From Forficula auricularia (lineage: Eukaryota > Arthropoda > Insecta > Dermaptera > Forficulidae): DNA of 64,000 nucleotides. The number at the start of each line of letters is the position of its first letter. Position 1 is the stretch's first letter. Below are positions 7,546 to 62,919 of this stretch, piece by piece. The translations under genes were made by a program, and so were the position numbers. The stretch lies in the NCBI GenBank assembly GCA_024734495.1, contig JALMQS010000128.1:17725079-17789078 (forward strand), written 5' to 3'. A model generated the notes under the pieces. That model ran no database searches and had not been told where the DNA came from. It saw nothing but the letters and a program-made list of their open reading frames with translations.

Positions 7546-7548
7546 ATA

Positions 7549-15167: not shown

Positions 15168-18100
15168 ATGGATGAAAATGAAAAATGTAAAATCGTGAAG
15201 TCGATTATTTCTGCTGGAACAAAATCTATAAATTTTTTTCCAGGTTCAAGAGTAAGTTAATTTTAATTATGCTGTACCATTTTGTCTTAATTAGTTTACA
15301 TTAATTAATTTCAATCATTGTTATTAGATGATATATATTACATATTACAACTAGGCTTATAGCATATGTCTCAGTTTGACCTGGACTCTTTCTTTAAATG
15401 TATGGTCTCGGTGTCCCGGCGAGTTAGTAATTTTCTCCCGGTTACTTGGAAAACATTAAGGTAAAAATTGGCGAATATACACCATGTTCAGGATCGTAAG
15501 ATATTTGCCGCCTATGGGATAATTACAATTATACGCCCCTTTTCATGAGATTCAATATATACGGGAGATTGAAGCGGTTGCGGGGTGATCAGTGAACTTT
15601 TACTGAGCTAGAAAAAGTCAGTATATTACACAACTCTACGAAAAAATGTTTTTCCTCTCCCAAAGTTTATTTCATGATTTTTCTATTCATTGTGCACCAA
15701 AATAATGGAAAAGCACCTATATTCCGTATAAAGTTTGCTTTTGTAGTTGTTATAATAATATTGAAGGAGACAATAAAAGAGTGTGTCTTCTACTGGAATT
15801 ATAAATTTTATTTATTGATAACGAGACTATAGTTTCGAGGGCTTTGCCCTCTTCATCAGTCTATTACAATGGATTCACAGGAATTTATAATTCCAACAGA
15901 AGACACACTCTTTTATTGTCTCCTTCAATATATAAAAATTCTGCTACTCTCGGCCAAAACTTTCATTTTGTTATAATAATAAACGACGAAAAAGGCCATT
16001 TTGACTAATTTTCGATTCCCATTAGATATTAAACAGCAATATTTGAAATTAAAATATTTTGTTGACGTGATAGAAAACAGCTTCCTCTTTGATTTTCAAA
16101 TTACCATTTGTTTGTAACTCAATTAGAACTCCAGTTATAACTAAAAAAATTAACACCATATGTTTTTATCTATGTTTATTATCCTTTATAATCAAGAAGT
16201 TTTAGTTTTTTAATTATAATTCGAGTTCTAATTGAACTAAAAACAAGGCGTAATTTGACAATCAAAGAGGAAGCTGTTTTCTATTACGTCAACAAAATAG
16301 TGTGATTTCAAATATTGCTGTTTAATATCTAATGGGACTCAATATAGGTCAAAATGGACTTTTTCGTCGTTTTAACCGATAATATCTCCAAAACAAGAGC
16401 TAATCGGTAATTTTTATGGTGATTTTTGAATTCAGCAGGAGGAAATACATAAGAATCAGCTATTTTTGGCCAGAGGCATTTTCATTGTCGACCTGTGTTA
16501 CCAATAAATCAAAGAAAATTACAAAATTAACTAAAAATAACCCATATGAACAAAAACAAACTATTTAAACAAAAAAACAGAAGTAACTCATTATATATAT
16601 AACTTATATTAAATTGAAAGTTTCTTTTTGCCGAGAGTAGTAGAATTTTTATAAATTCAAGGAGACAATAAAAGAGTATGTCTTCTGCTAAAATTATAAA
16701 TTTTTAATTTATTTATAACGAGACTATAGTTTCGAGAGCTTTGCCCTCATCATCAGTCTATCACACTTGATTCACAGGAATTAATGAAGAGGGCAAAGCC
16801 CTCGAAACTATAGTCTCGTTATAAATAAATTAAAAATTTATAATTTTAGCAGAAGACACACTCTTTTATTGTCTCCTTCAATTTATAACTTATATATTTA
16901 CTTTCCTTTTAAACCGACCTTTCGGAGGATTCTTCCCTCCTTCTTCAGGGTTTCAAAGGATCAATGAAAGAAACGGAATTAAGGAAAATATTTTTTTTTC
17001 TATTTTAATGCACCCCTAAAGAAGGTAAAATTTTCAAACACTGCTGAGGAGAGAAGCACCTTGTTTGTTCCTGCATTGACCCTTTGAAACCCTTGAAGAA
17101 GGTGGGAAGAATCCTCCGAAACGTCGGTTTAAAAGGAAAGGAGGAAAGAAAGAAAGGACTAATTTAATGCAAATAATTTTTATTTTGTTGCCAACGTTTC
17201 ATCAACTTTATTGACTTCTTCAGGGCTCAAATAGTTATCTTCCTTGCATATTTGTCATTTTTATAATTCTTTCTTAGTTACAATTAGCGAAAAACATAGC
17301 AAGGCAAGTCACTGACAAATATGCAAGGAAGATAACTATTTGAGCCCTGAAGAAGTCAACAAAGTTGGTGAAACGTTGGCAACAAAATAAAAATTATTTA
17401 CATAAAAATATAGTCCTTATTTCCCGATACCAACTTTAATAATTAATCGATGGGCATAACTAATTAAAATAAAGAAAGGAATGACAATCAAATAAATAGA
17501 CCCTATTTGGAAATGGAATAATTTTTTCTTTCTTCACTACCCCTGCCTGGCCTGCCTTTCATTACGTTCAGTTCAGTCAGCCCGTCTCTCTCCAAAGAGA
17601 CAATTTCGTTCAAATATGTTCTTGTTATTTTTATTAATATTTATAAAATAAAATGGGGGAGTTCAGATTTAACAGCTAACACCGGCCCTTCAAATGCGTC
17701 ACTGGATATGACATTTGAAACAACTAGTTATCGACTGTATTAATACAAATCTATATATATAAAATTCTTTACCCGCTACACTCACTCATCATCAAAACAG
17801 CCAGAACCACTGGATATAGAAACATGAAATTTGGAGAGGATATTACATCTATGACATAGGGGCTCACTAAGAAAGGATTTTTCGAAATTCGACCTCTAAG
17901 GGGGTCAAAGGGGGCAGAGTGTGTTTTCACTGATTATGCGATATCTCTTAAGGACTATAAAATATCTACTTGCTTTTTACTTATAAAAATACTAAATTAA
18001 AATATCTAAAAACTAATTTCAGGATTTTTTGAAATTCGACCCCTAAAGGGGTCAAAGGGGGGAAAATATCTTTGCAATATGTTTACACTAATTATGCATT

Positions 18101-21100
18101 TTCAATTAAGAACGATAAGATATCTACTTGATTTTTACTTAATAAAATTCTAAATACAAATATCTAAAAAGCAATTTCAGAATTTTTTGAAATTCGACTC
18201 CCAACTATCTAAAATGTGAGTGAGGGAAAAAATTAAAACCCTCTCCTATCTTGATCAAATTTTGTAGAGTTATTCTTTATTACTTTAAGAAACTATTCTT
18301 GTAAAAATCGACTATCAAAATTGACTGTAGGGGGCGAAAGGGGGGGGGGGGGGCAAAATATAGAAATTTTTAGCTTTTTTGTACATTTACTCTTTAGAAA
18401 ACTGAGAGTTATTTATTTGCAAATATCTAAAAAATAATTTCAACCTCGCAAAATGTGAGTGGAGGCAAAAAATTAATACTCTCTCCGATATAGATCAAAT
18501 TTTGTAATGTTAGTTTTTAAGACTATATAAAATGTATGCCGTAAAAATCAATAGCCAAAATGAGTGGGGGCGAAAGAGGGGGCAAAATATTACAAATATA
18601 TATTACAGACCTAATAATCATATGCCGAGAAGCTGCCTGCTAGGGGCACCTGCCCGGAGGGCCGAGCTGCAAAGGGCGTGCCCCCTACAGCTCGTTATTT
18701 ATATAAAATAAGAATTTGCTTTCAAATCCTCTTTGCTATAAGTACTTTTGTATATAAATAAATTCAACATAGAGCCATTTTCACACTAACTTCAATATAT
18801 CTGAATTTCAATTCACATAAAATTTATTCACATTGAAAATAAAATACTTCGGTTATTGGGTTGTTTAAAAGTAGAAAAATTTCCCCCCAGATTAAACATT
18901 TTTAATGCCATATTCTAATCTGAATACAAGACGTAATACCATATATGCAATTAATTTATTAAATTATTCACTTAAAATGTTGATTTATAATAATAATAAT
19001 AAATATAATTAATAATAGTTTAAAAATTGTTTTTAATATTTCTAGGTATATTTTCATTTCCAAACTATTAAATGTGATGATCAAAGAACTGTAATCGACG
19101 ATAGCAAGAAAAATGGAAAGCCAATGGAGCTTGTTTTGGGAAAAAGTTTTAAATTTGAAGTTTGGGAATCAATCATTCAGATGATGAGCATTAATGAAAT
19201 AGCAAGATTTACAGTCGACAAAACGGTAATTGTAATCATATGAAAAAATTAATCAGAGATTTAAGAATCTGCTTATTCAGTTGGTAACTTCGTATCCATT
19301 TATATCAAAAACATTGAGAGACGCTTCGAAGCCGCCTGAGAAAAGAAATCATCGATGTTGTGGTGTCACATTACAACATGAGGGAATCGGATATGATGAT
19401 TTAAATGAATTAATCAAAAATCCTGTTGATTTAGAGTTCATAATAGGTAACTTGAAATATATATTATTTTTAAAAACATATCGTCGCCTTAGAGTGTAAA
19501 CCTGATAACTCACAACAAGGAAATTTTACAGGGCAGAGAAAAAACAAACAACATTTAATATTGTTGTTATGGAAAGAAACTATTTTTCACATTTTTTTTC
19601 TACAACTTAGAATCGTAATTTTAAGTAGGAGTTTTACTTGGACGATGCTGCATCTCTTTTCCTTTCAAACGGTATTAATATGTCATATATGATAAAAAAT
19701 GGATTTAGCAGGTTTACACTCTAAGGCGACGATGTTAATTTTGTTATGAAATATATATATATATATAAACTTAAACTAGGGTGACACTACTGTGTATGTA
19801 CTTTTCTCTTTCACATAATTTATAGACCAACTACTTAAAATCATTTTGATGGGCCTAGTTCTTTGATTTAGCCTGAGAATTTTTAAACTAATTTGAGGCA
19901 AAGCTAGCTTTCAGTCATCAATAGACTTTGTGATCAAATCATAAAGTAGGCGAGCCGTACTTCTTTTCCTTCTCGTTTCTAGACTATACATATAAAAGAT
20001 TTTCAGCATTATACAACAAAAATAGACATGTAATTTTAAGGAAAAATTGGGAATTTAGCCAAGTTTTGTCAAAATATCTCGAAAAGGGTTAAAATTATTT
20101 TGATACAATCATGTGAGCGAAATCGGGGAATTAAGGCAAAAAAAATCATTTTTTTAAATATATCATTAAAAACGACAACTTTTTTGTTTGAATTTTAACC
20201 AAACTCTAATCAGCTCATAATAGCAATTTAAAATAACTAAATATGAAATTCATTTTCATATTCATTTTGGTTTTTGGGCTAGAACGCACAAAAAATTTTG
20301 CTAACTCACAAAGTCACTCACGTAAGCAAAGACATTTTACAAAATAATTCATATCTTTTTTCTTTAACATTTTTTGATTTTTGTCCTCCTTAGCGCCCTG
20401 ATTCAGCACATTTTTTTTATTTAAATATATATAGCCGTCTTTGAAATATTTCGAAAAAAAACCACTACTTTTTCTTGCACAATTACAATACGTGCCCATA
20501 CTGCGTATAATAAATTAAAAAAGATTCAACTTTTAAGTTTGGAAGATGTTCGAATAGATGGTGATGTTTGAGTTTGGCTTTTCTGAGATTACTTTTGTTG
20601 GTGCATTCTGGAAAGATCTTTACTTCTATAGTTCTATTGGCTTGGTGCAAAATTATTTTTTGCGACTTTTTTTTCTTTAAAAATGCATCACAATCATTTC
20701 ATGATTTCAACAAACTTTTTGGCGAAGGAGCAATCAGGAAAAGCCAAGTTGAAAAAAGGTTGAAGAAGTTCAAATCGGGTGATACAAATCTCGCAGATGA
20801 AGAAGGAAGAGGTTGACTATCAAATTTCGACGACCAGACACTTTTGTCAGCAGTGGAAGAGGACGAAAGCTTGACAATCAAAATGTTGGCCGAAGACGTC
20901 GTTCCTCGCCTCATAAAGCTCGAGAAAATATGAAAATTGGCTGGATGGGTTCGCCACGAACTCTCCGACAACAACAAAGCCGAATGTGTCCGAATTTTCA
21001 CCGATTTGCTGCAGCTAAACGAGCAAACTCCGTTCCTGCAGAATCTCGTCACTGGGGATGAATCGTGGCCTCTCTTCAAAAAGGTTAAAAGAAAGAAGAT

Positions 21101-23316: not shown

Positions 23317-23326
23317 TCAATCTTTG

Positions 23327-24085: not shown

Positions 24086-24350
24086 TGTTATCCTCTTAAG
24101 AGCAAGTGCTTTTAATAAACGTTTTTATCATTGTTTCTTAAAGAATCAAATTCAATTTATATCTTTATATAATATTGGAGCTTTCTATTTTGAAGATAAA
24201 TCGATTAAAGGAAATTTTATTTAAATAACACAGAGCAAATTTTATAGATATTTTTTGGTAAAACAACAAATAATACAATAAAGAATTATACTGAATACTG
24301 TAATCGTTAAATTGAAAGTTTTTGCCGAGAGTAGCAGAATTTTTATATAT

Positions 24351-24448
24351 TGAAGGAGACAATAAAAGAGTGTGTCTTCTGCTGGAATTATAAATTTTTT
24401 TTTTTTATAATTCCAGCAGAAGACACACTCTTTTATTGTCTCCTTCAA
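24351..24448. repeat. Near-perfect 98 bp palindrome (Penelope-type arms)
   Basis: The 43-bp arm GAAGGAGACAATAAAAGAGT...GGAATTATAAA is repeated exactly in inverse after a run of about ten T. It is the arm of the 15759 and 16651 palindromes without the hammerhead-containing centre. Confidence 0.9.
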
Positions 24449-24607
24449 CTGTAATCGTTATCATGTATGAGTAACCCACTTCAATTTTGGATAGACTGAT
24501 TTGGTTACGTTCTTTACTCTCAAAATGTAAAGTTTGGACCTGACAGGTTGATCTTGTGATCTGAATCTAAAATAGCTGATGTTTTAACCTGATTGATCTA
24601 TACATTT

Positions 24608-27741: not shown

Positions 27742-28465
27742 TAACCGACTTCAAAAAAGGAGGAGGTTCTCTATTCGACTGAATTTTTTTTTTTTTTTTT
27801 TTGTGCCTATGTTACCTCATATCTCCGCCAATTGTCAACCGATTTTGAAAATTTTTTTGCATTGGGTCCAGTCTAGCTTCCGATTGGTCCCATTTTTTTT
27901 TCGATTTTTTTCCATAGGTATTAGACCTTTTTTATTAGGTTTGTTTAGACCTAACCTCTTTGTTTATGAACCGATTTCGATGGTTCTTTTTTTATCCGAA
28001 AGGGGGTGTCTTAGGGATGGTGTCATATTAATTTGGTCAAGTTCTGATGATATGATCACTATTAATGACATCACTAAAAAGAGAAAATAAAAATAATTTT
28101 TAAGAAAAATAAAAACCGACTTCAAAAAATTAAATGCAACAAATAAAATACACTAAAAGGTATAAAATAATTATTATCTTATTTAGTTAACAACTAAACG
28201 ACGAAATATTAACATGAAATTACTTTTTGAAGTTGGTGCCAAACATATACCTTTTATGAATCGCACTCGACGGATCTTACTTAGTACGTTTGGCGGGTAC
28301 GCTCGCTTATAGGTATAGTTTGTTTGGCACCGACTTCAAAAAGTAATTTCATGTTAATATTTCGTCGTTTAGTTGTAACTAAATAAGATAATAATTATTT
28401 TATACCTTTTAGTGTATTTTATTTGTTGCATTTAATTTTTGAAGTCGGTTTTTATTTTTTTCTTA
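27742..28465 (+). repeat. ACCGACTTC-AAAAAAGG repeat, copy 2, with palindrome
   Basis: Begins AACCGACTTCAAAAAAGGAG. The second half (28105-28465) is a palindrome whose arms contain ACTAAAAGGTATAAAATAAT and ATTAACATGAAATTACTTTT. It is structured exactly like 2669-3590. Confidence 0.75.
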
Positions 28466-30190
28466 AAAATTATTTTTTTATAATAAATACATTTCATTTT
28501 ATAACTACGTCTCTTACAACATACATACAACTCTTAATCATTTTCTGGCTAAACCACTAACGATCATAACGTTACCGACTGAGGGTCTTTTTGATGATTT
28601 TGTATGGAAGTAATTTTGAAAGATGATGGGCGGCTATAAAAAGAGAATTTGGGAAGAGAACGGTAACCGATCAATTTGATTCATACTTTTATCAACATTG
28701 CTGGAGGAAGAAGCATGGCGTCCACCCTGTCAAGGAATTTCTTAGGCATTTAAAGCAGTTTTTCCTCCAGAGAAAAAAGATGCCCCGTTCTAAGAAGTAC
28801 AATATTTTTGCGCGTTTTAAATGTGTTTTATTTAGGGGTGGGTGGGGAGATAGGCAGAGTGGAGAACTACTGACAACTAACATGTTTTCATGTGACGTCA
28901 CGGGACATCTACTCCCGTTTTATCAATTTTGTCCATTTTCTTCAGATAGACTACTACTTCTAGAAGCTTTGGAACTACGAATATTTCCCTTAACCCTAAC
29001 CCCTTGTGAGGTTACGTCAACTCTAACTTCAATAGTAGTTTAACTCGCATACTACTATGACTATTATTACAGATTAAAAGTTATAAAAATTTAGAAATTT
29101 TCAAAAAGTGAACTTAATCACTCGTGTTTTTATCACTTAAAACTTAAATGACTAGATTTTATTATAAATTCATTTTTAATTTTGCTGAATTAGTAGTTCG
29201 AAACGTCATAATTCTTTATTGTACTGTATTATTTGTTGACTTATAACTAATTATCTTTAAAATATACTATATGAGATTTAAATAAAATATCCTTTAACTT
29301 TTTTTTATCTTCTGTTTTGTAATAAGTATCTAGATACATTTTTGAGTATCTAGTTGCGTATTTAGATATTTGGAAAAATTTATATCTGTATCTATTTAAA
29401 AAACGATACAAGATACATGTTCAGATTCTAATTTTTTAAAATTGTAATTTTTATTTGAACTCGTTTATTTGTTCCCTTCGATGGCATGTTGTTTGTCACA
29501 TATTGTTATTTATAATATCTAACCAAGGTCCGAAATTTGTTCCCCATTCTTACTTAAATCTAACATGAAATACATTTAAAATAGATAATTAAAAATTTAG
29601 TTAATAGTTTTCTTTTTAACCCTAAAATTGTTCAAAATTTTCAAATAACTCAAAAACTAGATGTTAGAATCAGTAGCGGGAGATCACAAGGTTTCCTGGT
29701 GGGCCGGTCCAAACGGAGCCACTATGAGTAATTTTTCGCGTACGAGTGATCTCCACCCGAAAAAATAAACTCAATGAGGCCGGTCCATTAAGATTTTACA
29801 AGGCAGGCTAACTCTACCAGCCCGCTTCTTGTTGGAATATTTTATTTAAATTAATCATATAGAACTAATCAAAGAAAAAATATACAAAAAATCTCAAAAC
29901 TTATTAAAAAGGCTATTATTGGATAATCACCCTTTCTATTCTAATTCTAGTATTTGTTTCCTAAATACTTTTGTGAAATTTAAGTATTTTTAATAAAATG
30001 TGTTAATAATTAAAAATACTTGGATATTTTTTGCAAAGATCCAACTACAGTAGCGCTTAAAATTGTTTATATCTTCACATGTAACTTGTATCTAAATATT
30101 TTGCAAAGGCTTTATCTGTATCTAAACATTGGAAAATTTGAATCTGTATGTGTATCTAAATATATTTTCAGAGCATCTATCCGTGTCTAG
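28466..30190. other. No recognisable gene
   Basis: AT-rich, with a slightly less AT-rich stretch at 28680-29040. That stretch holds short open frames on both strands with no domain I know. 29668-29830 (CAGTAGCGGGAGATC, GGCCGGTCCA) may be a small DNA-transposon piece. Confidence 0.5.
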
Positions 30191-30841: not shown

Positions 30842-33800
30842 TTATTCCTCAATATTTTCCTGACTGGTGTTAAAACTTGATGGACACTCGTATCTAACCA
30901 ATAGTCTTTCCCTAGGAGCTAGAAAAAATAAAAAAAATAAATAATTTTAGATTAATCTTTTGGAGAAATTGTCAATCATAAATATATATCTTACCAGATT
31001 TTGGAAAAATAATTTTTTCTAAATTTATAAATGGTGCTTCGAAAAATAAGGATAAAATTATTGCAATAAGCGATGAAAATATGAAATCGCCAAAAAATAA
31101 TGGAATCTAAAATCGAGAAGTTATTTTTAAAAATTTATTTCATTTCATAAATACATTAAAATAGTAAATTAAACATACAATTATCTTATCAGAAAGATAA
31201 CTCGTATATCTATATGATGAAAGTAGAGCCACCTGAAGCGACATGTGCACAATAAATATCGCATAAGTTAGTCGAGACAACGGAATAAAAATCTTCCAGG
31301 ATAAAAATTTATTAATAATTCCTAAAATAAAATAATTATTTGATTTTGCTTATATTACTATTCAGGGGAGAGTAAACCAATTGAATCCGTTAATTGTTGT
31401 TACTTGTAACTGGTCATTGTTAAAATAAAAAAAAAATCGTATTCTTTTAATTTCAAGGGTAACTTGCTACGCAATTGAAATAAATTTAATAATTTGATAA
31501 TTTTTTTATTTATTTATATTCATCCACTAAAGAGTTTCGGTAACCACAGGTTTACCATCTTCAGTAATAAAAATCGTTTTAGTTTTTGCAGATAGCTAAT
31601 ATAAACATCTCATTCTTAATTTGTCTTCATAGATCTTGAGATTCAGATGAATGAATACCCTTGTGTGAGTGTAAAATCCATAAAAACAAATCAAGAATCA
31701 TATGTTTATTATATATATAGACAATCTCTAAAAAATAAAATGATTGACAAGTATAAAAGAATTCAAATTACATACAGTCATTTATCTTGTATATTTATAA
31801 AAGATCTTGTACTTATACTCACTATCCTTTTTTGGGAGCAACTGTAACTTTAAATATAAAGTTACTAGTTTCTTTAATTATTTTTGTTTCATGGGATCTC
31901 ATACCTTACCAAGATTTTATCTGAAATACTAATTTAGCGAATTTGGTCTTAAAATTGAATCATTATTATCCACAGTAACAGATAATTCATACAATTTTGT
32001 AAAAGCTTTAAGGAATTCGGATGACTATAAACCTTTAAGTGAAAGTTAAAAAAAAATATATTTTATTAAAATTTTAATTAATATTTCATTATTTTTGATT
32101 TAGTGAAGAGGTGAATCAGTGAATGATAAAATTGATTTAGAAATGAATAAAATAGAATTACTTAAACCTCTTCATTAAGCTGCTCTCACATTGTCCAACA
32201 TTGTGGTTTCGGCAGATTTTAAAAATGCCTTAAGAAATTCCTCCTGCTTCTAAATATCATTACTTTATGGAAAATTTTCTGCTCATACACCAGATAAATC
32301 GAAATTTTTTATCAGTAATTCGCAACTAACTTGAAACTGCAATTAGTTCCCCAAAATGAATGGAAATAGTTCTTATACTCAGTTCTTTAAAATTAAAGTA
32401 ATTATTAAATAGTTCTCTTATGTTTCTGTTAGTATTCATTATGTTTATTATGATTAAATAAATAAATCAATAAATGGATCATAAGTAAACGCAAGTTACC
32501 TCCATTTCCTGAAACACAGGCATAAACAATGCAGCCTATAAAAGCAGCCCATGCATGTCGATAAGTTGCCAAATAAAGAGCTTCAATAAATCGATGTCGT
32601 TGATAATCTGTCTGATTGAATGGATAAATGGATACCAATACACCAAATCCATAAGCAAGAACAATAGTCCATAATAATGTCAGAGATTTCTGTAAAATTT
32701 TATGAAATATATATTTATTTAATTTTTTTCTTTTTGTTAGCAATTATTCACTTCCTTCAAATTTCCACGTTTATTTGCCTAAACCTTAATTTATAAATAA
32801 CCCATTCCTATAACAAAAAATCAGGGTTACTCTCGTAAAATGTACATACCTAATTCCACAGGAACTCTTATTGTGGCTTATTCATAAAGTAAGGTGTGTA
32901 TTTCAATTAATCTAGAAATTTGGATGAGCTTAAGATTGCCTTAAATAAATAAATATAACTTTTTTATTTTTTAATTAACTAATGAGCATCAAACTATTGT
33001 TTTCTATTTTTATACACATATCGTCGCCTTAGAGTGTAAACTTGCTAACTCACAAGGAAATTACAGGGCAGAGAAAAAAACAAACAAAATTTAATATTGT
33101 TGTTATGGAAAAACCATTTTTCTTATTTTTTTCTACAACTTACGATCGTAATTTTAAGTGGCAGTTTTACTTGGACGATGCTGCATCTCTTTTTCTTTCG
33201 AATGGAATTAATAAGTCATATCGTCGGCTTAGAGGGTAAACCTGCTAACTCCATTTTTTATCATATATGACATATTAATACTGTTCGAAATAAAAAGAGA
33301 TGCAGCATCGTCCAAATAAAACTGCTACTTAAAATTACGATCGTAAGTTGTAGAAAAAGAAATGTGAAAAATAGTTTTTTCCATAACAACAATATTAAAT
33401 TTTGTTTGTTTTTTCTCTGCCCTGTAAAATTTTCTTGTTGTGAGTTAGCAGGTTTACTCTCTAAGGCGACGATATATGATAAAAAATGGATTTAGTAGGT
33501 TTACACTCTAAGGCGAAGATATGAAATTGTTATTCTTCGAATTTCAAATATAGAATCTTAATTTAAATAAATAACTAATAATAATCATCATCAAGTAAGT
33601 ATATTGTCTTAAGCCTGGTTTGACGCAACATCCCTCACCCACTCAACTATCTCACGCGAACTCTTTGACTTTTCTAAAAGTCTCATCTATTTAATTATCT
33701 GGAGAAAATATTCTAATCTAGGTCTTCCCCTTCCTCTGAGTTATAAGGTCTGCCTATCATATGATCTCTTCTCATCTTCACATTCTTCCAGTCTTCTCTT

Positions 33801-36800
33801 TTCTCTAATTTCTTCAAGAACATCCTCGTTTGGTATTTTATAAATATTAATTTTAATTATAAATAATGAGTGTGTTTTCAGTTCAAAAATGGCCAACTTA
33901 CACTATCCCTTGTTTGGAAATGATCTTTGTTTTTATATATATAATAGCCCGTGATCATCCCTAGCACATAGGGTCCAAATCGAGAATGAGTGGTTGAGTA
34001 AATATCTGGAGGACCACTAAAACAATACAATTAGTGACATAAAAATTTCTTCCTGTAAAAAAAGGAAACGAATAAATATAGAAATGAAATATTTCTAAGA
34101 CCCTCACCACTCAGGTATATGGGTATTAATTCGTGGAGCGTGGACTCGACCAAAGCAGTTGTTTTATATTTAATATGAGTACCTGTTCAGATATCCTGGA
34201 CTCAAGTGATTGACGTAGGCTATACTAAAGACGACAATGACACTTGCGAGGACAGCGACCCAGCAAAGAGCGATCCCCAACGCGGGCCAAATCCACAGAG
34301 GAAAGAGCAGAATTGGAGTCAACCAAAAAAGTTGCATATCAACGGCCAAATACCACGCCTGTCCTATACACGGAATATAACAATATTTTTTATTAAGCTT
34401 ATATATCATTATTATTTAATATTGTTTTTCAAAGATTTAAGATAATAATTTCTAATTTAAGATTCGTAGAGATGTGGAAAAAATAAACCCTCTAGAACGT
34501 TTCGTCGATTTATTCCCACTACATCAGCAACTTAGATTTTAGTGATTTGACATTAAAACTAATAAAGTAAAAAACAAAAAGTGAATTAAATACTAGGACC
34601 GAGTAATTTATAAATCATGGAGACTAATCATCCTAAAAATGTATTATGTTGATTAATCCGTCTAGACTTATTTTGTTGTATCAATCTAGAAAGAAAAAAT
34701 TCTACTATGTCTCAATTATTTTTATCTTTATTTCAACCAATGTTGCTCTAACCAATTGAGTGCTTGAAAAAGTCTCGAGAGAGACGAAACGTTGTACAAA
34801 AATTGAATAAGAGCTTCAATAAAAAACATTGTCCAAAGAACTGTGAATTTTTAATCTAAAAATGTATGTTCTCTGGACCATTTTTCAGAAAAATTATGAA
34901 TTAATATTACTATATATAATTGAATCGGTCATTTCAAAATCCACATAAGTCAAGATTTTTCCAAACATGCTTTTTTTTGTCGCGAACACTTTATTAAAGG
35001 TAAACTCATAATCTGAGTAAAACCATCACGTCAGTACATTCTTTCCTATTGAAACAGCACCCCGAAGTGGTCGGTCGTTCATTGCTTAAACGACACAGGT
35101 CAGTGACTTAAGTTTGATTCCTGAAAAGTTCTGATTGTATGACTTAAGTGGTTTTTGGAATGACCGATTCAATTATTTTAATCGAAACCCTTGTAAAGTA
35201 AACATATTTATCTCTATGTATTAGAAATTAGATTATAATACAGGGCAGTTCTTTAAAATTTAACATTGTATTTTAAGTAGGTACTCTAAAATCACTAACG
35301 GATACGATTTCTACCGGTCTGATTTAATTCTAATCTGGACCTGCCTAATTTTTGTAGGACCCGGTTCAAATACTGACTTTAAAGTATAAGAAAAATAAAA
35401 TAAATAAATTTACTCTAAAAATTAATTACTCAGGATTGGATGAAGGCAGCCCGGGAATAAATAAGAGATAAGAGACTATTTCCAACAAATAAAATTTATT
35501 GGAAATGTTTTTCCCTTATAATATTGTTTTGATACAGACGTTTCGGAGGATCTTCCCTCCTTCTTCAGGGTTTAAAAGGGCCAATGAAGGAAACATATAG
35601 TACTCTTCCTTCTTGCCTCCTCTCTCAGTGTTAGTTGGTATGTAGAGAATACTTAAAGACTTCCCATCATCAGTAGAATTTCATCCAATCCTGAGATATT
35701 AATAAATCATTCCGTCTCCAAAGAAAAATCTCTAACGTAGTAATTAATTAATTAATCGCGGAACCAAACTCGCTTAACCATTCTCGGAGCGGCTCTTCTC
35801 TCAATTACAATGAATTTATTATTTCAATAGACTTATTTTTCAAATTGCTATGTGCTCCTTTTTGAAGATATTAGTATAGTGAACTTTCTCTTCTACCAAC
35901 AGTTTTTTTTTTTTTATTAAATACGAAGGATGTCGCTTCTGGTCAACATCAATCAACCTGGGGAGAGACTTTTAAATTAATATTAGCCAAGGAAATTACT
36001 TCTCCAAGGTAAGTTTGAATCAGCATATCATAAATTGAATTCCTAGCGTTTAGCTATTACACTACACTAGTCCCCTCAAAACAAATGATCTCATTTACCG
36101 GAAGTGTGGCCCCATCTCCAGCTTCCTCTTGGACATAATTATTGACGTAAAGAAGTAAATGCCACCAATGCTTTTTGCAACCGTTTTCAAAAGTATCCGT
36201 TGCTAGTGGCCAATAAGGTCCATCACCAAAAAATTTAAAAATTGTTACATGGATGAATATCATAATAGCAAGAAGTGGAGTTAATCTATAAAAGATAAAA
36301 TAAACAAATATAATCAAAAGGGTATTTTTCCGAGAATAGCAGATTTGTTTATATTAATTAATAAACTATACATCATAGTGTGCGACTTCTGCTTGATATA
36401 AATAAATAAATATATCTCGGGATTGGCGTAGTTGAAAAATAAAGTATTAACTAAAAGCTAACTAAAGAATAAAGACTAAATCGACAAGTACTTTTAACAT
36501 AATTAATCATTTAGTTTTTGTTAGGAATCTATATATATATATATAAAATTAAGGTTTTGTCTGTACATTGGTTCAAATCACGCCAAATTTTGGTTGCACA
36601 CGTTTCAAGCAAAGTTATGAACGAAAACACCCTCAAAAAATTCCTGTCTGTATGTATGTATGTCTGTCTATCTGTTTCCGTCGTTTCCGAAAAGTTGCTC
36701 ACGATTCACGCAAAAACGGCTAAAGGGATTATTATGAAATTTCATATTTACATCAGATGTCTTCTAACTTACGTTTTTAGCTATAACGTTTTGATATTTT

Positions 36801-39800: not shown

Positions 39801-42800
39801 TTAATCAAAAACATTGAAACTAAAAAAATTCTTCTTCTTCTTCTTAATCATTCAAATAAAGACACAGGTGTCTGTTTATCCAATGTATTCCAGCCTTCGG
39901 GGTCGTAGCTTTCCTTCCATCTTTTCTTTGGTCTGCCTCTGCTTCTGTACCCCCCTGGACGGTTTATGCAGAACAATCTTCGGGAGACGGTCGTTAGACT
40001 TTTTTTCCACATGTTAGGCCCAATATCGCCTTCAATTATTAACCCATTCAACTATATCTTTTATCCCGCTTCGATTCCTTAGTTCTTCACTGAGACTAAA
40101 CTCAAATTTTAATATTTGTTATTATTAAATTAATATTTCAATCATTTCAATTGTAAAATTTTCTAAATTTAAATAAAGATCTAGTATAAGACAATCTTTC
40201 GTAAGTTCTTAAGAAATTGTAAGTCTACTTCTATGGACAATTTGAACTTTTATATGATCAAAATAATTGTTTTTAAAAGTGTCGAATATTTAGAAGTTTA
40301 TTTTTTGCGGCGAATTAAATAATCTAATATTAATTATTAAATCTCTCCTTACTTTTGATGTTGGATTGACTGAAGCTAAGCAGTACTGAGGAATTACAGA
40401 CTCTTTATCATCATTAAGATCCATACATTCGTCAAATTGACCCAAAGATATAAGGTTGCCGGTTAGAAGACCAGGAGGAATCTTTCCCCATGCATCAATC
40501 ACTAAAATAAAAAATAAATTATAGAAATAGGAAGTGATTGAAATACAGGTTGATTGTCGTATTCTATAGAATGAGGATTATAAAATTATATTCCTAAAAA
40601 CTTTAATAAAAAATCAATTAAAAAATATACAGAAATAAGGTATTTTTTTCTTATGGAATATTTTTAGCGGCCTTAAAAGTGACGCAACAATATCTGTCGG
40701 TCCTTCTCTCTGACGGAGAGAGCACTGTAGCTCTTATGCCAATCAAAATACAAACTTGAAATTTACCAACTATAGATATGTACATTAATTTTTCCCAAAA
40801 TCAAAAATTGTAATAAAATTGTAATTAATTGACTATTTGAAGAGAAGATCGACTTTTCCATGGACTTGAAAATATATTTTTTTTTTATCATAGTCGTTAG
40901 ATAAGTAACCCCGTTAAGATCAAATTAAGAATAATTTGGCTGTTGTTTCTTTGTTTTGTTTTTAATTTAATTCACTTTAAAATGACGGTCTGAGAGGTGA
41001 GAAGTGGTAATTTTTATGTGATTTTTGAAACTATCGTCGTTCAAAAGTGACTTAATTTTAAATTATAAAAAATTCCACGAAATCACTCATTCTCTCTTTA
41101 CCAACGACAAATAATAACTTATTTGATATCTCAAGTACTATTTTCGAAGATATAAGTTACCTAAAGATTCTGTCTGACTCGGTTTATTTTTATTTTCTAA
41201 TTAAAATATCTAGATCAAATTTGCAACTGCCTTAGTCCCCCGCAGCCCCTCCCTGCCCCGTACGCTAGCGTGGGACCAGCAAAGGGGCAGAGGCGATCTA
41301 ATCCCTGGGTTACAGGCTACCTCAAACCAGACAAGATATATATATATATGCGCTGGAATGCATCTTACTCTAGATTGTACTAAAACAAATGAAACCCGAG
41401 CAACTTGCGCGAATTGCAACGGCGAACACCCGGCAAACTACCGCGGCTGTCAAGTAGCCAAGCAGCTACAAGAAATACGCAACAAACAAAAAAAATAAAA
41501 AACACCACAGATATGGCTGCCAAAACGAATAGAAACCTGGAACAACAAAAAACAAATTCCAATGAGCAAAAAGCGAACACAGCATCGAATGAACTAATCT
41601 CGCAACAGCAAACGAGCTATGCAAAGATAACTCAAAAAGAAATCACTACCACTGCAATAAATCCAGTGGAAAAAATGCTACAAGATATTATAATCAAGCT
41701 AAATCAGCTAGAAAACCAATACAGCAACATAAACCAAAGGTTAGAAAAATTAGAACAAATACAATACTCACAAGTTCAACTTTAAAACATGAAAAATTTA
41801 ACAATTATGGCCTGGAATGCCAACGGACTCCTGCACAAACGTAATGAACTCCAAACAGTACTGGAAATAAACAATATAGATATATGTCTTATATCCGAAA
41901 CGCATGCCACTCGAGAGACAATATGTAAAATAAAAGGATATAATTTTTATCACTCCTATCACCCCAGCAATTGCGCAAGGGGCGGAAGCGGTATCCTAAT
42001 AAAACAAAGCATTCAACACTATGAAGATACTATACTACAAACAGAGAAAGCTCAAATCACATCAACAACAATTAAAACAAAAAAATATCCCATCACAATT
42101 GCTAGTATATACTGTCCACCCCGACATAAATTAGAAGAACATGAATTTACAGAAATAATACAACAGCTTGGAAATCGTTTCATTCTTGGTGGTGACTTTA
42201 ACTCAAAGCACACACACTGGGGATCTAGATTGATCACCACTAAAGGTCAAGCACTCATGAGAGCTATTCGTTCAAATAAATGTGAAGTCCTATCAACAGG
42301 AAAGCCAACGTACTGGCCCGCGGATCAAAACAAACAACCAGATCTAATAGACTTTTTCATTACCAAGAATATACATTCTAACTACATTATGATAGAGGAA
42401 AATAATGAATTGAGCTCTGATCATACACCAATTATACTCACACTAAGTGAAAACCCAATCCAGAAACCCCACAACCCAGTATTGGTCAACAAAGGTACAG
42501 ACTGGATAAGTTTCAGGATAGAACTGGCTCGAAATATTGACCTAAAGACCTCAATCGAAACCCAAGAAGACCTCGAGACAGAACTAAGCAAACTGGTTAA
42601 CAGCATACAAAGTGCAGCTTGGAACAACACCCCAGAAATAAAAATAAAATTGCATGGAATAAATTATCCACGCGAAGTCATCCACCTCATTCGGGAGAAA
42701 CGAAAAGCGAGGAAAAAATGGCTACAAACTCGCGCGCCAGCACACAAAACAACCTGGAACCAACTCACTCGTCGCTTAAATACAGAAATACGGAATATTA

Positions 42801-44599
42801 AATCAACATCAGTCCAAGCCTACCTCAGCGAACTGTCGCCCGAACGGTGTACAGAATACTCCCTATGGAAAGCCACGAAATGGAACAAACGCCCCATTTT
42901 ACAAGCACCTCCACTCAAGGATGCTCAAAGAAATTGGATAAAGGATAACCAGAGCAAAGCTGATTTGTTTGCGGATTACTTGGCCAATACTTTCAAGCCA
43001 AACCCAGAAAGTACGAACCAACAACCACTTGAATATGCTGCGCTAAAAGATCATGAAACTAAAATCCAACCCACCACAATTAAAGAAATTCAAGAAATGA
43101 TCAAGTCAGAAATTAAAACGAAGAAAGCCCCAGGATATGACCTAATAACAGGGCAAATCCTAAAAAACCTACCTAGAAAGGCTATTGTTCAAATTACCAA
43201 AATCACTAACGCAGTCTTTCGGCTAGAATATGTGCCACAACTCTGGAAGTTCGCAGAAGTTATTATGATACCCAAATCCGGCAAACCCCTAAATGAAATC
43301 ACATCCTACAGACCAATCTCACTCCTACCAGTCCTCTCCAAATTGTTTGAAAAGCTAATACTTAGAAGAATAACACCCATCATCGAAGAAAGAAAGTTAA
43401 TTCCAAACCACCAGTTTGGCTTTCGAAAAAAGCACTCGACAATCGATCAAGTGCATCGAATTATCACTAATATAGAACAAGCACTTGAAGAAAAGAAAGT
43501 AACCTCGGCAGTGTTTCTTGACGTCTCTCAAGCTTTCGACAAGGTCTGGCATGAAGGACTAAACCACAAAATAAGAAAAGCTCTTCCAGCATGCTACGCA
43601 AAAGTTTTTGAATCGTACCTTGCAGATCGATACTTCCGCATAAAACAAGAAGAAGCTTATTCTGAACTTAAAAAAATCAACGCTGGAGTACCACAAGGAA
43701 GTGTCTTGGGACCACTCCTTTATCTTCTCTATACCAGTGACCTCCCAGAAATTTGCTCTAATATAACAGCTACATTTGCAGATGATACCGCAATTCTAGC
43801 AACCGGACACAACAACTACGAATCTACACAAAAATTGAACACCTCACTTTCCAAAATCCAAGAATGGACTGCCAAATGGAGAATAAAACTCAACGAAACA
43901 AAATCGGTTCATGTTGACTTTACAAATAAAAAAGTCACGCACATACCTGTGTATATCAACAACAACATCATCCCATACTCCAATCAGGCCAAATATCTCG
44001 GAATGACGCTAGACACGCGTCTCCGATGGAAGGTGCATGTCAAGAAAAAAAGGGAGGAGCTTAATATCAACTTTAAAAAGATCTACTGGATAATTGGAAG
44101 AAATTCTTCAATGTCAATTGAAAATAAGCTCCTTTTATATAAGCAAGTACTCAAACCAGTGTGGACATACGGCATCCAGCTGTGGGGATGTACAGCACAG
44201 TCAAATAGAAACATTATACAAAGATTTCAAAATAATGTACTAAGGTGCATTGTAAATGCTCCTTGGTACATTCGAAACGCGGACCTCCATCGTGATCTTG
44301 GCGTGGAAACCGTCAGTGAAACCATTAAGAAGCTATCAGCAGCCCACCAGACGAGGCTGCAAGGGCATGTGAACGAGGAAGCCTTGCAACTACTCAACGT
44401 TGACACACAGACTCGCCGGCTGAAGCGTATCAAGCCTCATGAACTTTGTTAAAAACATTTTAATAAAAAATAGAGATAAAGACAATTATATATAAGAAAT
44501 ATATGATTGCTTGTTGTTTTGTGTTTTGTTTTAAGTTAAATCTATAGCAAAATTACTTATTAGCTGCGGCTAGCAGCTAGATTGTAATATTACTATTAA

Positions 44600-44636
<37 letters not shown>

Positions 44637-50902: not shown

Positions 50903-50937
50903 ACTGATGATGAAGATCAAATCTTCGAAACTATAGT
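50903..50937 (+). ncRNA. Hammerhead-ribozyme-like motif 8
   Basis: Plus strand: CUGAUGA, U, perfect 6-bp hairpin GAAGAU-CAA-AUCUUC, then GAAAC and UAUAGUC. Together with motif 1 this is the best-preserved core. It is solitary, next to (TA)n at 50950-50990. Confidence 0.55.
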
Positions 50938-50939
50938 CT

Positions 50940-54240: not shown

Positions 54241-55490
54241 TTCCTTATATTTATTTATTTATTTATTAAACAATGCTCTGAGGCAAGATTCCTCATAGAG
54301 CAGATACAATAAATTATTTGATACAATATACTGAGAAATAATATAAGTACAACATTATTACACTTTTTAAATAACAGATAATTTTAAAGAACAACACCAA
54401 CACCATAATTTTAAAGAACAACACCAAACCAACGCCAACACTCTATAAATTATAGTTAACAAGTAGTTAGATAAGCTAAGTATAGTTTTTTATGTCATCA
54501 AGGAAAACAGTTTAAAATTATTCTATCTTTATAGAATTTTTTAGTCAAAGTTAATTCATTTAACTAAAGAAGAAATAAACTCACTTATGAACGAAATTCT
54601 ATACTATACTATACTAGGTGTCGTAAAAATATATGTACCTATATTTATTTATATTAATCAGAAGACAAACTCTTTAATTTATTCCTTATACAAAATGTAT
54701 TATAATAAGAATAAAATTATATAATAAACATTTTTGAATAGCATTTACCCTGCTTTATTTTAATTTGCTCTTTAGCTATACAGATGATCAGTATAAAAAA
54801 TTGTATAATTACATATTCTATAGATATATGTAAAATTAAAAATGGGTAGCTTAAGAAATGAGAATAGCTGATCTAAATTTAAAAAATCTTAATATTAGTA
54901 AACTAGAAAATGCTAGAAAAATATTAATAATAGTTTTCTGATTGAAAATACTTCAACTTCACGTAAAACAAAAATAATAATTTCTCGTGTTTCAGAATTA
55001 CATTTTCATGGACACCACACACACTGATGAAAGCTTCGATTCTTATGGAATTAATACAATAGGTCAAGTTTGATGTTTAAAGGGAAACCTTCAACTTGAA
55101 ACCATATATTTAAATACATATACTATTTCAAATGGACGATAAATACTAATTTAAGGTAGTTATATCGCACAGTAGTAGCAAAAAGTTAATGCTAAATTAT
55201 ATAGTACAGACCTTAGACCATTTAAATTTTCCTTTTTTTCCTTTTTTGCTCATTGTATTGAAAAATGAGAAAAATAATTTTGTCTGTGGGTCTGGATTCA
55301 GATACCCACGATAATTGAAGAACGAAAAGTCGTAGAAAGTTCGTTCTTGTGCTAAAATATTTGTATTTCCAATAGAGGGAGCTAATTAGATTTTGGCTTT
55401 TCTAGCTTTAGAACTTCTAGTTAAAAAATAAAAAAAACATTATTTTAGGAATGATTTTAATTCTCGTATTAAATCAATGTTATAATATCG

Positions 55491-55850
55491 TTAATAAAGT
55501 AAAGGTGTGTATTTTCACAGTGAATGAAGTAAAACTCAAAGAGGTTTATACAAACTCAATATATTTCGCTATAGATCATAGTTTACAGGTTAAAAACTAT
55601 ACTATTTGAACAGTGACGATCTATAAAATATATTATCAAATCATGTATCAATATAACAAAATATAACATCCAAATCAGTACGTATATGATTTAGATGTTA
55701 TATTTTGTGATCACTGTTCAAATAATATTAGTTTTTAACCTGTAAACTCCTGATGATGGACTAATAATCCGAAATATATTGAGTTTGTATAAACCTCTTT
55801 GAGTTTTATTTCATTCACTGTGAAACTACACACCCTTTACTTTATTAATT
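55491..55850. repeat. 360 bp palindrome with hammerhead-like core
   Basis: Arms AATAAAGTAAAGG(G)TGTGT, AAACTCAAAGAGGTTTATAC and AACTCAATATATTTCG face each other, and the palindrome continues inward to GTTATATTTTGT. The right arm carries an intact core. The left arm has lost it between 55570 and 55585. Confidence 0.75.
55750..55780 (+). ncRNA. Hammerhead-ribozyme-like motif 9
   Basis: Plus strand: CUGAUGA, U, short GGA/UCC stem with a 7-nt loop, then GAAAUAUAUUGAG. Boxes intact but stem II only three pairs. Confidence 0.4.
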
Positions 55851-55964
55851 AAAATCATGTTTCACCTAAAACCTACACCATTTTCTCTAAGTAAAATTAT
55901 AATATAATCATGAATTAACAATTTATTTTATATTTAAGTTTATTATTAATTAATTATAAAGGCG

Positions 55965-57509: not shown

Positions 57510-57970
57510 TATAAATGAGAAAGAAAACTATTTTATTTTATCGATTTAATCTATATGAAGGTACACGTAATGTTTGTAATATACGAAAATAGAATTTAAA
57601 TTAAGAATTTTGTAGTTTGAATGAAATACTATGAAAACATTCAGTTTCTTCAATGGGGCAGAGTAATGGCAAAAGGGTTTAATTTTTTTCCTCATCAGAT
57701 ATTCAATTAAATCTATTGAAATTTCATATCTATGAAATATTTTTAAAAACTTTTATATCAATAGTTTTTATTAGAAAATTTGTATTTTAAAGGGTAGTTT
57801 ATTTGAAGTCTAATTTGGAAAAACAGTAATTACTACTTTGAAATAATTTTTAAAAGTATGAAATTAATAAATATTCTAAAACAATTAATTATTAATAATT
57901 TAATTCAATTTTGAACGAAATTGATTGATTAGTTTTCAAGAAAATGCTAAAAATCTAGAAAAATCAAAAC
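57510..57970. repeat. Long AT-rich repeat, copy 2
   Basis: Aligns with 46490-46960 through AGTTTCTTC, TAAATCTATTGAAATTTCAT and AAAGGGTAGTTTATTTGAAG. It is the most diverged copy. Confidence 0.6.
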
Positions 57971-58027
57971 AAATGACTCGCTGATGCCGGATGACTTGCG
58001 ACCCAGCTCTTGATAAAAAATAACTAA

Positions 58028-59330: not shown

Positions 59331-60249
59331 ATTGATCTAATTCTAGATATTCTACATATAAAAAAATTCTAATTAAGAAACATTGATAATTTAATTTATT
59401 AAAAGAAAATTAATTATGTATAATTAGTTCCGATGATTATTTAAATATCTGTTTTATATATATGGTGCCCCTTAGATTGAATGTGAAATCTTTTATTGAC
59501 ATCCGTGTAACCAACCTAATTCAATATTTTTATTTAAAAAATTACGTGGCCAATTCATTGGACTAGAATTTTTGATATTGAAAAATATTTACATTTATAT
59601 AACTCGTAAACTATTGATTTTAGACAGTTCTCTCATAAAAACTTTTCTAAATGTCTTTTTTTATTAAATATAAAATAAAATTATTTTCATTTTCTTTTTC
59701 ATAGTTTGAGTTTTGAATTTTGAAAGTCCTCAAAAATATTAGTTGATCTGGGATCTGATTTTTTTCTCTAAAAGACCCTGCTAACCGGGATAGTTAATAG
59801 TATTCTTAAAATAATTGCAAACTTTGGAAATGATAATTTATTTCACACAATGTGTTGGAAGATAACAATAGAATTATATATTTTAGAATAAATATCAAAA
59901 ATATCTCTGAAAGCTCTTGTATTTTGTCTGAGTTTAATGTATTTATTTCTTTATTACTACCATCTTTTAAAAGATTTTCTATGTTGTCTCAATTTCTTTT
60001 TAATACTTACTGTCAATTTCAAAAAGCTTATATAAGAAACTAAAATTATCATCTTATGTTTTAAATAGCGTGGAAATAAAGGATCACTCCAGGGGCTCAA
60101 GAGCTAATTTTTCATTTCATTTTATCAGCCAATAGTTTATTCTTTTATCTATTATAATCAAGAGGGAAAAAATAATTGAATATTGTAGCTCATCTTGTCT
60201 GAAATCGAACTTGAATTTGAATTATTTTTCCATTTAGATCTTTTTAACT

Positions 60250-60480
60250 GATTGAATTATTTTTGCTGTTATAAGAAAAATATTGAATTACAAAATATAA
60301 ATAAATAACTGTACTAATTAAAATTCTCAAAATGTAGTCTGAATTTGAACTTGATTCATGACGGTGTGCGCCTGTATTTAGGCAACAATTTGCGCGCAGA
60401 AGAATGAAAGCTGCGTAAGAGCTAGGTGAGTCCAGTCGTTGATGGAATGCTGCCACAGATTATGGGCATGTAGACAGGCC
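60250..60480 (-). other. Possible orphan exon or fragment, unidentified
   Basis: The least AT-rich stretch nearby. The minus strand has an acceptor-like TCTGTGGCAG at 60455, followed by an open frame reading FHQRLDSPSSYAAFILLRAN. I recognise no domain, and no partner exons were found. Confidence 0.2.
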
Positions 60481-61629
60481 ATCAAGTAGATATGTATGAA
60501 AGGATAATTTTTAAATAAGCTTTAAATAGGTAGAGAATAGAAAAGATAGAGTTTATCATATAAACATTCGAGTTTTCCCGATTTGCTGCATCAGTTCCAT
60601 TTTATTAATGTGATTTTGCCTTTTACTTTATACAATGTGAAGCATGGATAAAGTATTGGCATCGTTCTCGCGCCAAGCGCTACTTCAAAAGATCTTCAGT
60701 TAAAGACTACGGAACCCATGCGAATTAGATTTCATTTGACAATTTAATTAAAATTTTCGTTTAGAAAAAATTCAGATGAAAAGTGTATGAAAAAAAGAGA
60801 TTTTGATTTAGTTGAATATCTATAATATCTAAATAAATAATTAATAATACAGGTGTGGCCACTAACCTTAACTTTGGGAGCCGCAAATTTATAAAATTGT
60901 TTCAAAGCGAGCCACATTGTTTGGAGATTAATTAATGTTTTATTAAAAAAAAGACACATTTTTTTATTTTATAAAATATAAATGAAGTAGGTAACATTTA
61001 TTTTTGCTCTACTTACTTATAACATTTGTGTTCAATTACAATAAAAAAAGAAATAACATTTTACTTTTGAGAAGTGCTTTTACGAGCGTTCATGTTAGTT
61101 CTTAGTTTGGAAATCTGGCTGATAAGACTGGTCGACAAAAAATTTTTCCTCTTAAACCTAACAATGAATTCCAACAGAGTTTTATACGCTGATTATCATG
61201 CAATTTCCTGATTTTTTCCAACACGTCAGAGTTTTAAGATATTATCGGTCAAAGTGACGAAAAAGGCCATTTTGACCTATTTTCCCATTAAATATTAAAC
61301 AACAATATTTGAAATCAAAATATTTTTTTGACGTAATAGAAAACAGCTTCCTCTTTGATTTTCAAATTGCCATTTGATTGTAGCTCAATTAGAACTCGAG
61401 TTATAACTAAAAAAACTAAAACTACGTGATTATAAAGGATAATAAACATAGATAAAAACAATCAGTAGAGATTGTGGTGTTGGTGCAAGGTGAAACATCT
61501 TTAATAAAGATAAGAGTAAATAGATATTTTATTTAATATGGATTTACTATGAGTTAAGGATACTGGGTCACTTATTTCACATTAAAATTAAAAAATTAAA
61601 AGATATAAATTTTTTTTTCTTTTTCAATA

Positions 61630-61660
61630 TATATATTTCGGGCTATCAACCCATCTTCAG
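61630..61660 (-). ncRNA. Hammerhead-ribozyme-like motif 10
   Basis: Minus strand: CUGAAGA, U, stem GGG/CCC around UUGAUAG, then GAAAUAUAUAU. Lies downstream of the Penelope-like C-terminal coding sequence of the left arm. Confidence 0.5.
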
Positions 61661-61889
61661 GAAATACAGAAGGTAACTAAATAAAATTTATTGAATGACA
61701 GGCTATATATATGTTTATTGAACAGAGAGACAGAATTTATCAAATTATTTTAAAAGGACACTTTCTCTTAAGCTGTTATTCAAGAAAGAAATTCGGGTTG
61801 ACCTTTTACATTTACATAGGATTGTTTGGGTAAAAGGCAGGATTTGTGAGGTCATTGACTTATGTCTCTGGGTTGGAAACTGATTTTTA

Positions 61890-62110
61890 CATTTGGATAT
61901 TAAAAAAATCAATTCTTCTGTTTGATTTTACATCTAGTTGATTGTTGATAACATTTTCATCATTCTGACTAATGGCATATTTTATTTCCATGGATTCAAG
62001 AAGGTCCAATCTTAATCTCTTTCTCTTTCGAAATGAATAGGGGAGGGGTTGAGAAGGTGAGAGGTATTTTTCAAAATTAATAAAAAACACACGCTTTCGC
62101 CAATTACATT
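61890..62110 (-). pseudogene. Penelope-like ORF C-terminal tail (left arm)
   Basis: Minus strand reads FRKRKRLRLDLLESMEIKYA followed by NDENVINNQLDVKSN, resembling the KGxxLxxLExxEIxK tail after the GIY-YIG domain of Penelope-like proteins. The same tail, degraded, is in the right arm at 62515-62640. Confidence 0.55.
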
Positions 62111-62296
62111 CCCTCACAATCGAGATCTGGAAAAATCTATAAAAGAATCCCCCTTTATTTCCAAACATACAACCTAATCTCAACAGCAAATATTCTCCAG
62201 AAGCATGGTATCACTCCAGCCCTTTATAATATAAATAATTTATCCTCCCAATTAATAAATAATAAATTCGAACAAAAGTATGATAAAATAATATAG

Positions 62297-62640
62297 ATCT
62301 GGGTGTGTACAAATTTCTCATTCCCTACGATTGCGAGGCTAATTTATATTGGCCAAACGGGACTGATCTTTTATAAAACGGCACATAAGAACATTTCAGC
62401 TTCCCACAGACAATTAATAAGAAACCAGCCCATAAATCCAGACTCTACTTCCGCATTTGCTGATCATCTATATGCCTTAGATCATGTACCTTGCTACCTT
62501 CTGACCCCTCCCCTATTCATTTCGAAAGAAAAGGATTGAGATTCGACCTTTCTTGGATCCATGGAGCTAAAATACGCCTTGTCAAATGATGAAAAATCTT
62601 ATCAACAATCAACTAGATGTAAAATCAAATATAATAATTG
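62297..62640 (+). pseudogene. Penelope-like GIY-YIG endonuclease segment
   Basis: Plus strand reads RLIYIGQTGLIFYKTAHKNI, then SAFADHLYALDH, the YIGQTGRSFKTR...FAxHLxxxxH pattern of Penelope-like GIY-YIG domains. The frame ends at 62539. The tail (SMELKYAL, in another frame) follows. The catalytic Arg expected after YIGQTG is replaced in LIFYKT. No reverse transcriptase is present: 5'-truncated. Confidence 0.65.
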
Positions 62641-62888
62641 ATTTTTTAATATCCGAATGTAAAAATCATTTCCAACCCAGAGACATCAAGTCAATGACCC
62701 TCACAAACTTGCCTTTTACCCGAACATATCCTATGTAAATAAAAAGGTCAACCCGAATTTCTTTCCGAATGCCAACTTAAGAGAAAGTAGTCCTTTTAAA
62801 AATAATTTGATAATTCTGCCTCTGCTCAATAAACATATATAGCCTCTCATGCAACAATTATTTAATTTAGTTACCTTACTGCTATTTC

Positions 62889-62919
62889 CTGAAGATGGGT
62901 TGATAGCCCGAAATATATA
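62889..62919 (+). ncRNA. Hammerhead-ribozyme-like motif 11
   Basis: Plus strand: CUGAAGA, U, GGG/CCC stem, GAAAUAUAUAA. Inverted partner of motif 10, about 250 bp downstream of the GIY-YIG/tail coding sequence on the same strand. Confidence 0.5.

Follow-up and report, generated by a model that had tools for sequence, protein, structure and literature searches.

Foldback insertions with hammerhead-like cores in a 64-kb stretch of the Forficula auricularia genome point to several lineages of Penelope-like elements

What are the hammerhead-like RNA motifs that recur within the foldback repeats of one stretch of the Forficula auricularia genome, and how did the foldbacks arise? We analyzed 64,000 nucleotides of contig JALMQS010000128.1 (assembly GCA_024734495.1, positions 17,725,079 to 17,789,078), hereafter the window, for which an earlier reading, the original prediction, had reported at least eleven cores of the form CUGANGA, hairpin, GAAA and had interpreted the foldbacks as pseudo-long terminal repeat (pLTR) remnants from several Penelope lineages. 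We consider it highly probable that the foldbacks stem from the insertion of Penelope-like elements (PLEs) of several lineages and that the 3' part of these elements contains a minimal type I hammerhead in which one extra nucleotide precedes stem II. Judged by sequence, lineages A, E, and H are directly tied to GIY-YIG reading frames; we hold our confidence at this level, a direct tie being absent for lineages B, C, D, and G.

A strict scan of the whole window for CUGANGA, zero to two nucleotides, a stem of at least 5 bp, and GAAA gave ten matches, compared with a mean of 0.145 and a maximum of 2 in 200 dinucleotide-shuffled windows. Exactly one extra nucleotide before stem II was the best fit in all ten; "one or two" had been described earlier, and two were not seen in these matches. 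A script check confirmed that all eleven reported cores exist: ten pass the strict scan, and the eleventh, at 55750, has a weaker stem II, paired at 4 of its 5 outer positions, but a stem I of 9 bp. The reported sites were right, except that minus-strand cores had been given by their low end; the C of CUGA lies ~30–35 nt higher, at 15859, 16756, 16948, 17223, 31564, 35568, and 61660. Five further cores had been called degenerate. Those at 7330 and 17092 are members of family B, and the one at 16781 is the second, truncated arm of the foldback with the core at 16722. The 13 cores used to train model R1 included 7330 and 17092, so that only 16781 (E = 0.0032, outside the training set) and the marginal 34763 (E = 0.79) are independent of it among the degenerate cores; 34495 was not recovered by R1 at E ≤ 10. 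Using sequence and window self-comparison, we sorted the cores into seven lineages: A (cores 15859 and 16756), B (7362, 16948, 17092, and 35568), C (17223 and 17347), D (55750), E (61660 and 62889), G (31564), and H (50904).

The differing hairpins had been read as compensatory variation, and the pairing patterns agree: stem II covaries, and stem I, unused in the selection of cores, also pairs. Among 12 aligned cores, stem I was 73% paired and stem II 97%, the latter value being inflated as the cores were selected by it. For the two stems together, 85% of cells were paired in comparison with 56% in shuffles, and none of 500 shuffles was as high. Stem I pairs better within than between lineages, with 4 of 720 permutations as good when the cleavage position is set by the palindrome described below and 8 of 5,040 when it is optimized. 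The form of stem I varies: lineage A requires one bulged A, followed by 7–9 pairs, foldback B2 has 5 bp and then 3–4 more beyond one mismatch or bulge, and core G, single in the window (31535–31564, minus strand), has a wobble-rich stem of 7 pairs. As a control for stem II less affected by this selection, we took fetched loci matched only by the core letters and their spacing and, since the loci overlap, used types instead of counts. Eleven of the 18 types pair at 6 of 6 positions and the other seven at 4 or 5 of 6; five of the eleven are different all-Watson–Crick helices (GAGGGC/GCCCTC, GAAGAC/GTCTTC, GAAGGC/GCCTTC, GAGGAC/GTCCTC, and GAGTGC/GCACTC). Core H (50904–50930, plus strand; stem II GAAGAT/ATCTTC) is of the same type as the hammerhead of a tandem array elsewhere in the genome (L198, below), from which it differs by a compensatory C–G to U–A change in stem II.

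The segment from GAA to the cleavage position, corresponding to stem III, is an exact palindrome in six of the seven lineages (A, ACUAUAGU; B, ACGU; C, ACGU; D, AUAUAU; E, AUAUAUAUAU; H, ACUAUAGU), with a background rate of 13% among 1,221 GAAA sites in the window. It is not palindromic in G, nor in the B copies 16948 and 7362. In every lineage, the best-fitting reading has C or U at H17, and the cores thus combine the CUGANGA/GAAA letters, stems I and II, and an H17 other than G, as in minimal type I hammerheads. A palindromic stem III is what minimal hammerheads cutting as dimers would be expected to have; RNAcofold dimer folding of the cores gave mostly long duplexes, and we set these folds aside.

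Window self-comparison showed head-to-head arms, and six insertions are complete (A1, A2, A3, C, D, and E), with exact target-site duplications (TSDs) of 14, 12, 13, 10, 9, and 9 bp. Foldback A1 (15747–15981; element 15761–15967; TSD 15747–15760 and 15968–15981) has its core at 15833–15859 on the minus strand and its tail at the right. A2 (16598–16895; TSD 16598–16609 and 16884–16895) has its tail at the left and two cores (16730–16756, minus; a truncated one at 16784–16821, plus), and A3 (24297–24460; TSD 24297–24309 and 24448–24460), also tailed at the left, has no hammerhead core. Foldback C (17149–17480; TSD 17149–17158 and 17471–17480; cores 17197–17223, minus, and 17347–17373, plus), tailed at the right only, interrupts the right arm of foldback B2 (16901–17635; cores 16920–16948, minus, and 17092–17121, plus). 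D (55480–55905; TSD 55480–55488 and 55897–55905; core 55750–55774, plus) has a right tail containing ATGTTTCACCT. Insertion E (61448–63057) lies within a copy of foldback F; its TSD, ATAGATAAA, is exact over 9 bp and longer by eye with an indel, and it comprises a tail (61461–61496), an inverted left arm (61497–62058; core 61636–61660, minus), and a right arm (62496–63050; core 62889–62913, plus).

We placed the boundaries initially by eye and evaluated the TSDs against 1,500 random placements with the same slack; each TSD length was reached in at most 1.9% of them. The joined flanks of E align cleanly to the uninterrupted paralogue of foldback F (15981–16387), which has no hammerhead and serves as a paralogous empty site, and those of C align to an uninterrupted B2 paralogue with an 11-nt gap near the junction. 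With six complete insertions, each having a TSD and a one-sided tail, the several lineages and terminal motifs of the original prediction hold and its "remnants" is an understatement. Family B is less intact: besides B2, the window contains B1 (7144–7542; degenerate core 7334–7362, minus), whose right arm is interrupted, and a partial copy, B3 (35528–35632, minus; core 35541–35568), and the B1 core and the right-arm core of B2 deviate from CUGANGA. The element interrupting B1 (7542–9277) is mariner-like, with inverted ends and matches to a Mos1-type helix-turn-helix and a transposase.

Exactly one tail was present in 18 of 18 two-ended copies: A1, A2, A3, and C in the window, 8 of 8 for E, and 6 of 6 distinct copies for D, the last two counts including the window copies. 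The query for E was the tail-less arm, and its count is therefore unbiased. This asymmetry of the ends speaks against the idea that the elements are DNA transposons with terminal inverted repeats, similar to miniature inverted-repeat transposable elements, and that their likeness to hammerheads is incidental. Long inverted arms, short size, and many candidate places would suit such transposons; E copies, however, enclose a GIY-YIG frame between their ends, refuting the idea for E, and the A tail reads NSATLGQNF, resembling the NSATLGK at the start of the open PLE frame in the tandem array. We judge the transposon explanation very improbable. The arms also bear on retrozymes, small nonautonomous elements with circular RNAs from hammerheads in direct tandem repeats, which have the same ribozyme type and likely share a PLE helper (PMC7761336). 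The window arms are instead arranged head to head, window self-comparison gave no direct hammerhead repeats of 150–300 bp, stem III is reduced to a palindrome, and members of E and H carry frames for an endonuclease (EN) or for reverse transcriptase (RT) plus EN, leaving retrozymes scarcely credible.

The tie of E to a GIY-YIG frame comes from its copies. The window copy contains a broken frame (62084–62536, plus; IYIGQTG...SAFADHLYALDH) with one stop and the GVYK part in another frame. Among 12 loci fetched as copies of the 3' part of E, the window copy included, eight (L200, L201, L202, L203, L204, L205, L207, and L208) have GVYKLNC(D/N)DCEAIYIGQTGRSFIKRHKEH within an open frame of 148–411 aa, and 188 nt past the end of the frame the same core follows; L206 and L210 have the frame in part and L209 has none. 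We identify the window fragment as GIY-YIG because the E copies keep the frame open; their motif scores 17.5 bits with Pfam, under the cut-off of 22.6. Both ends were seen in eight of the 12 loci, each with one tailed and one tail-less end, and one end only in the other four. The flanks of the two-ended loci match over 11–12 exact bp, and over 9 in the window copy.

Searching the 1.06-Gb genome, we scored 40 candidate places per query, the rest being first-look only; the first look gave 2,813 candidate places for A1, 3,365 for A2, 2,284 for C, 2,844 for D, and 1,445 for E. A search with PF01541 gave 150 scored matches among 3,423 candidates, and we fetched 30 loci, some of them near-identical. 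Cores were found in 23 of these, 29 in total and 28 with one extra nucleotide, compared with a mean of 0.17 and a maximum of 2 in mononucleotide shuffles. In 22 of the 30 loci, a core follows the GIY-YIG match ~0.3–0.75 kb downstream and shares its strand, and in seven the scan found none. Two loci without a core by scan (L172 and L173) resemble a cellular nuclease that we take to be SLX1. Locus L188 was rejected as a parent of A, its core being on the strand opposite to its GIY-YIG frame; YIG frames are found beside an A-type core in L183 and L194.

Locus L198 (G000:C563:410300-417300) is a tandem Penelope array of the H type. It contains two complete open frames of 858 aa and a portion of a third, and its three cores, in identical hammerhead stretches, are spaced 2,909 bp apart. 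Its open reading frame (ORF) matches RVT_1 (1.6e-16) and GIY-YIG (8e-6), and the H type therefore has RT and a C-terminal GIY-YIG in one ORF; telomerase chains match its RT only at E 0.15–0.17, and bacterial RTs score higher. Tandem copies forming pLTRs were found in L198, for the H type only. Given the identical hammerhead stretches, the array may be recent. The original prediction had staked itself on repeat copies adjoining Penelope-like coding sequence elsewhere in the genome; here the outcome favored it, and the decisive support is given by the 22 GIY-YIG loci and the array. In lineages D and E, the tails share ATGTTTCACCT, probably an ORF start.

Decay need not be the reason for the extra nucleotide ahead of stem II, because open-frame elements of this genome carry one. 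In known hammerhead alignments, insertions between CUGAnGA and the stems are at most 1–2 nt (PMC10085705). As a side control, we scanned viral contigs with the pattern, obtaining at least 120 matches, of which we examined 120. Among these, 14 have a stem II of at least 4 bp; stems I and III are also complete in 8 of the 14, in comparison with 7 of the other 106. Five loci (L093, L105, L113, L016, and L010) look like complete hammerheads, have the same additional U ahead of stem II, and received no Rfam call at the gathering cut-off. The control indicates that hammerheads elsewhere can have the one-nucleotide insertion and still look complete. With a stricter PLE pattern, the viral contigs gave no match.

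Several observations weigh against the reading as PLE insertions with hammerheads. Rfam 15 gave no match in the window at gathering cut-offs, and its 22 matches at E ≤ 10 were mostly microRNA models on inverted repeats and included no hammerhead; the covariance check proposed with the original prediction thus counts against it, although the reduced stem III and the inserted nucleotide may explain the missing match. The window's own GIY-YIG fragment has no match in Pfam, NCBIfam, the PDB, or the protein database, and a tblastn comparison with the genome's other PLE proteins reached 20.4 bits, under the null maximum of 21.6 among 57 window segments. Lineages B, C, and D are putatively linked to Penelope by foldback anatomy, tails, or TSDs, and G only by its core. 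For D, the one-tail count is biased, because the query that retrieved the copies itself had one tail. Only one of eight C copies, the window's own, has a TSD of at least 10 bp. Among 39 A1 copies, conservation was 0.971 in the core and 0.94–0.96 in the flanks, and cores in inserted copies decay much as their surroundings.

Further points concern catalysis. Self-cleavage of the cores is predicted from sequence, and stem I is as short as 2 bp in H and in the open-frame parent of H. Tested hammerheads were less active when nucleotides were inserted elsewhere in the core, after A6 or next to C3 (PMC3088659), and the PLE ribozyme of the anole did not cleave in the absence of protein, its mutants still inserting in vitro (PMC11167929). 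The weak stem I of H and the anole results also favor another explanation, that the PLE insertions are real and their hammerheads inactive, kept as structural RNA such as a binding site for the PLE protein. This is possible but, in our view, doubtful: the catalytic letters recur across lineages with H17 as C or U in each, and the palindrome of six lineages would be needless for a mere binding hairpin.

If the foldbacks are PLE insertions, as we prefer, their anatomy suggests how they were made. The PLE protein would cut both target strands ~9–14 nt apart, and each cut end would prime reverse transcription inside the PLE RNA, one starting at the far end of the tail and the other just 5' of it. 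The two antisense cDNAs, presumably joined head to head, would give a foldback with exactly one tail, because the target ends prime at different sites. The least certain step is that, in tandem transcripts, the palindromic stem III would be shared by two hammerheads, which would cleave the RNA into unit lengths. In vitro, the anole PLE protein cut both strands and extended them, and its reverse transcription started at two internal sites that flank the tail (PMC11167929). That study saw no start-site difference between strands (PMC11167929), a further point against our reading; one tail per insertion is thus not predicted by the in vitro data alone.

Some foldbacks, of the A1, A2, and C types, may be not by-products but nonautonomous PLE derivatives that propagate as units, with each insertion obligatorily drawing on the two RT start sites, one for either strand of the target; we advance this tentatively and think it less than probable. 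The presumed template of A1-type units, the RNA of the tail strand, has the hammerhead in antisense only, and hammerhead cleavage of the template could then not be needed for insertion. Outside the window, 29 of 39 examined A1 copies had exact end repeats of at least 10 bp; L148 and L150 share one end repeat and are probably duplicates. For A1, a junction recurring at a microhomology may account for the copies as well as an amplified unit: the junction contains AATT, which permits recurrence, and the scoring took in the 40 copies closest to the query. The D loci include six distinct two-ended ones, L227 being a duplicate of L225; L222, L223, and L226 showed one end under the pattern used, and a one-letter change hid the tail of L223 from it.

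Four PLE-type insertions (A1, A2, B2, and C), one of them nested, and foldback F lie within 1.9 kb at 15747–17635, possibly reflecting an insertion preference for PLE or foldback DNA. Other long foldback repeats, without a core in the core scan, lie at 61139–61460, 63049–63356, 3192–3604, and 28089–28477. The window also contains an open ORF of a long interspersed nuclear element (41786–44452; 888 aa, endonuclease and RT). A protein encoded by a short ENA contig matches it at 100% identity, the next best match being 78%. The organisms named among the 120 matches listed for it are Cyamophila willieti, Diaphorina citri, and Lygus hesperus, which we take to be hemipteran insects.

Minimal hammerheads of PLEs are reportedly the subject of Cervera and De la Pena (2014) and Lunse et al. 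(2017). The copies in the window are a clear record of how a PLE inserts, and the genome, with its open-frame parents, its clean insertions showing both ends, and candidate places in the thousands, makes the hammerhead's role, still called a mystery (PMC7761336), and the origin of the inverted copies testable. Among literature titles and abstract starts, with most subscription journals outside the search, we found no description of foldback units that bear hammerheads and are amplified as such. Hammerheads of PLEs, inverted pLTRs, and tails have all been published, and the element is of a known kind. Like the minimal PLE hammerheads proposed to act as dimers (PMC7761336), the cores are of type I without a proper stem III; each core scanned here has, in addition, one extra nucleotide before stem II. 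The Penelope/Poseidon-type PLE PAc of Anolis carolinensis similarly has an ORF with RT and C-terminal GIY-YIG, tandem units, a hammerhead, a tail, and AT-rich-looking TSDs (PMC11167929). It differs in host and in having its hammerhead at the start codon, whereas here the hammerhead lies between the end of one ORF and the tail of the next unit; the count of one tail per insertion comes from this analysis. The Penelope families of the rotifer Adineta vaga, for which the partial text of PMC3846280 does not mention hammerheads, share head-to-head inverted pLTRs, junction palindromes, a one-sided tail, and TSDs of ~8–10 bp, but are of low copy number (PMC3846280), in contrast to the thousands of candidate places found here.

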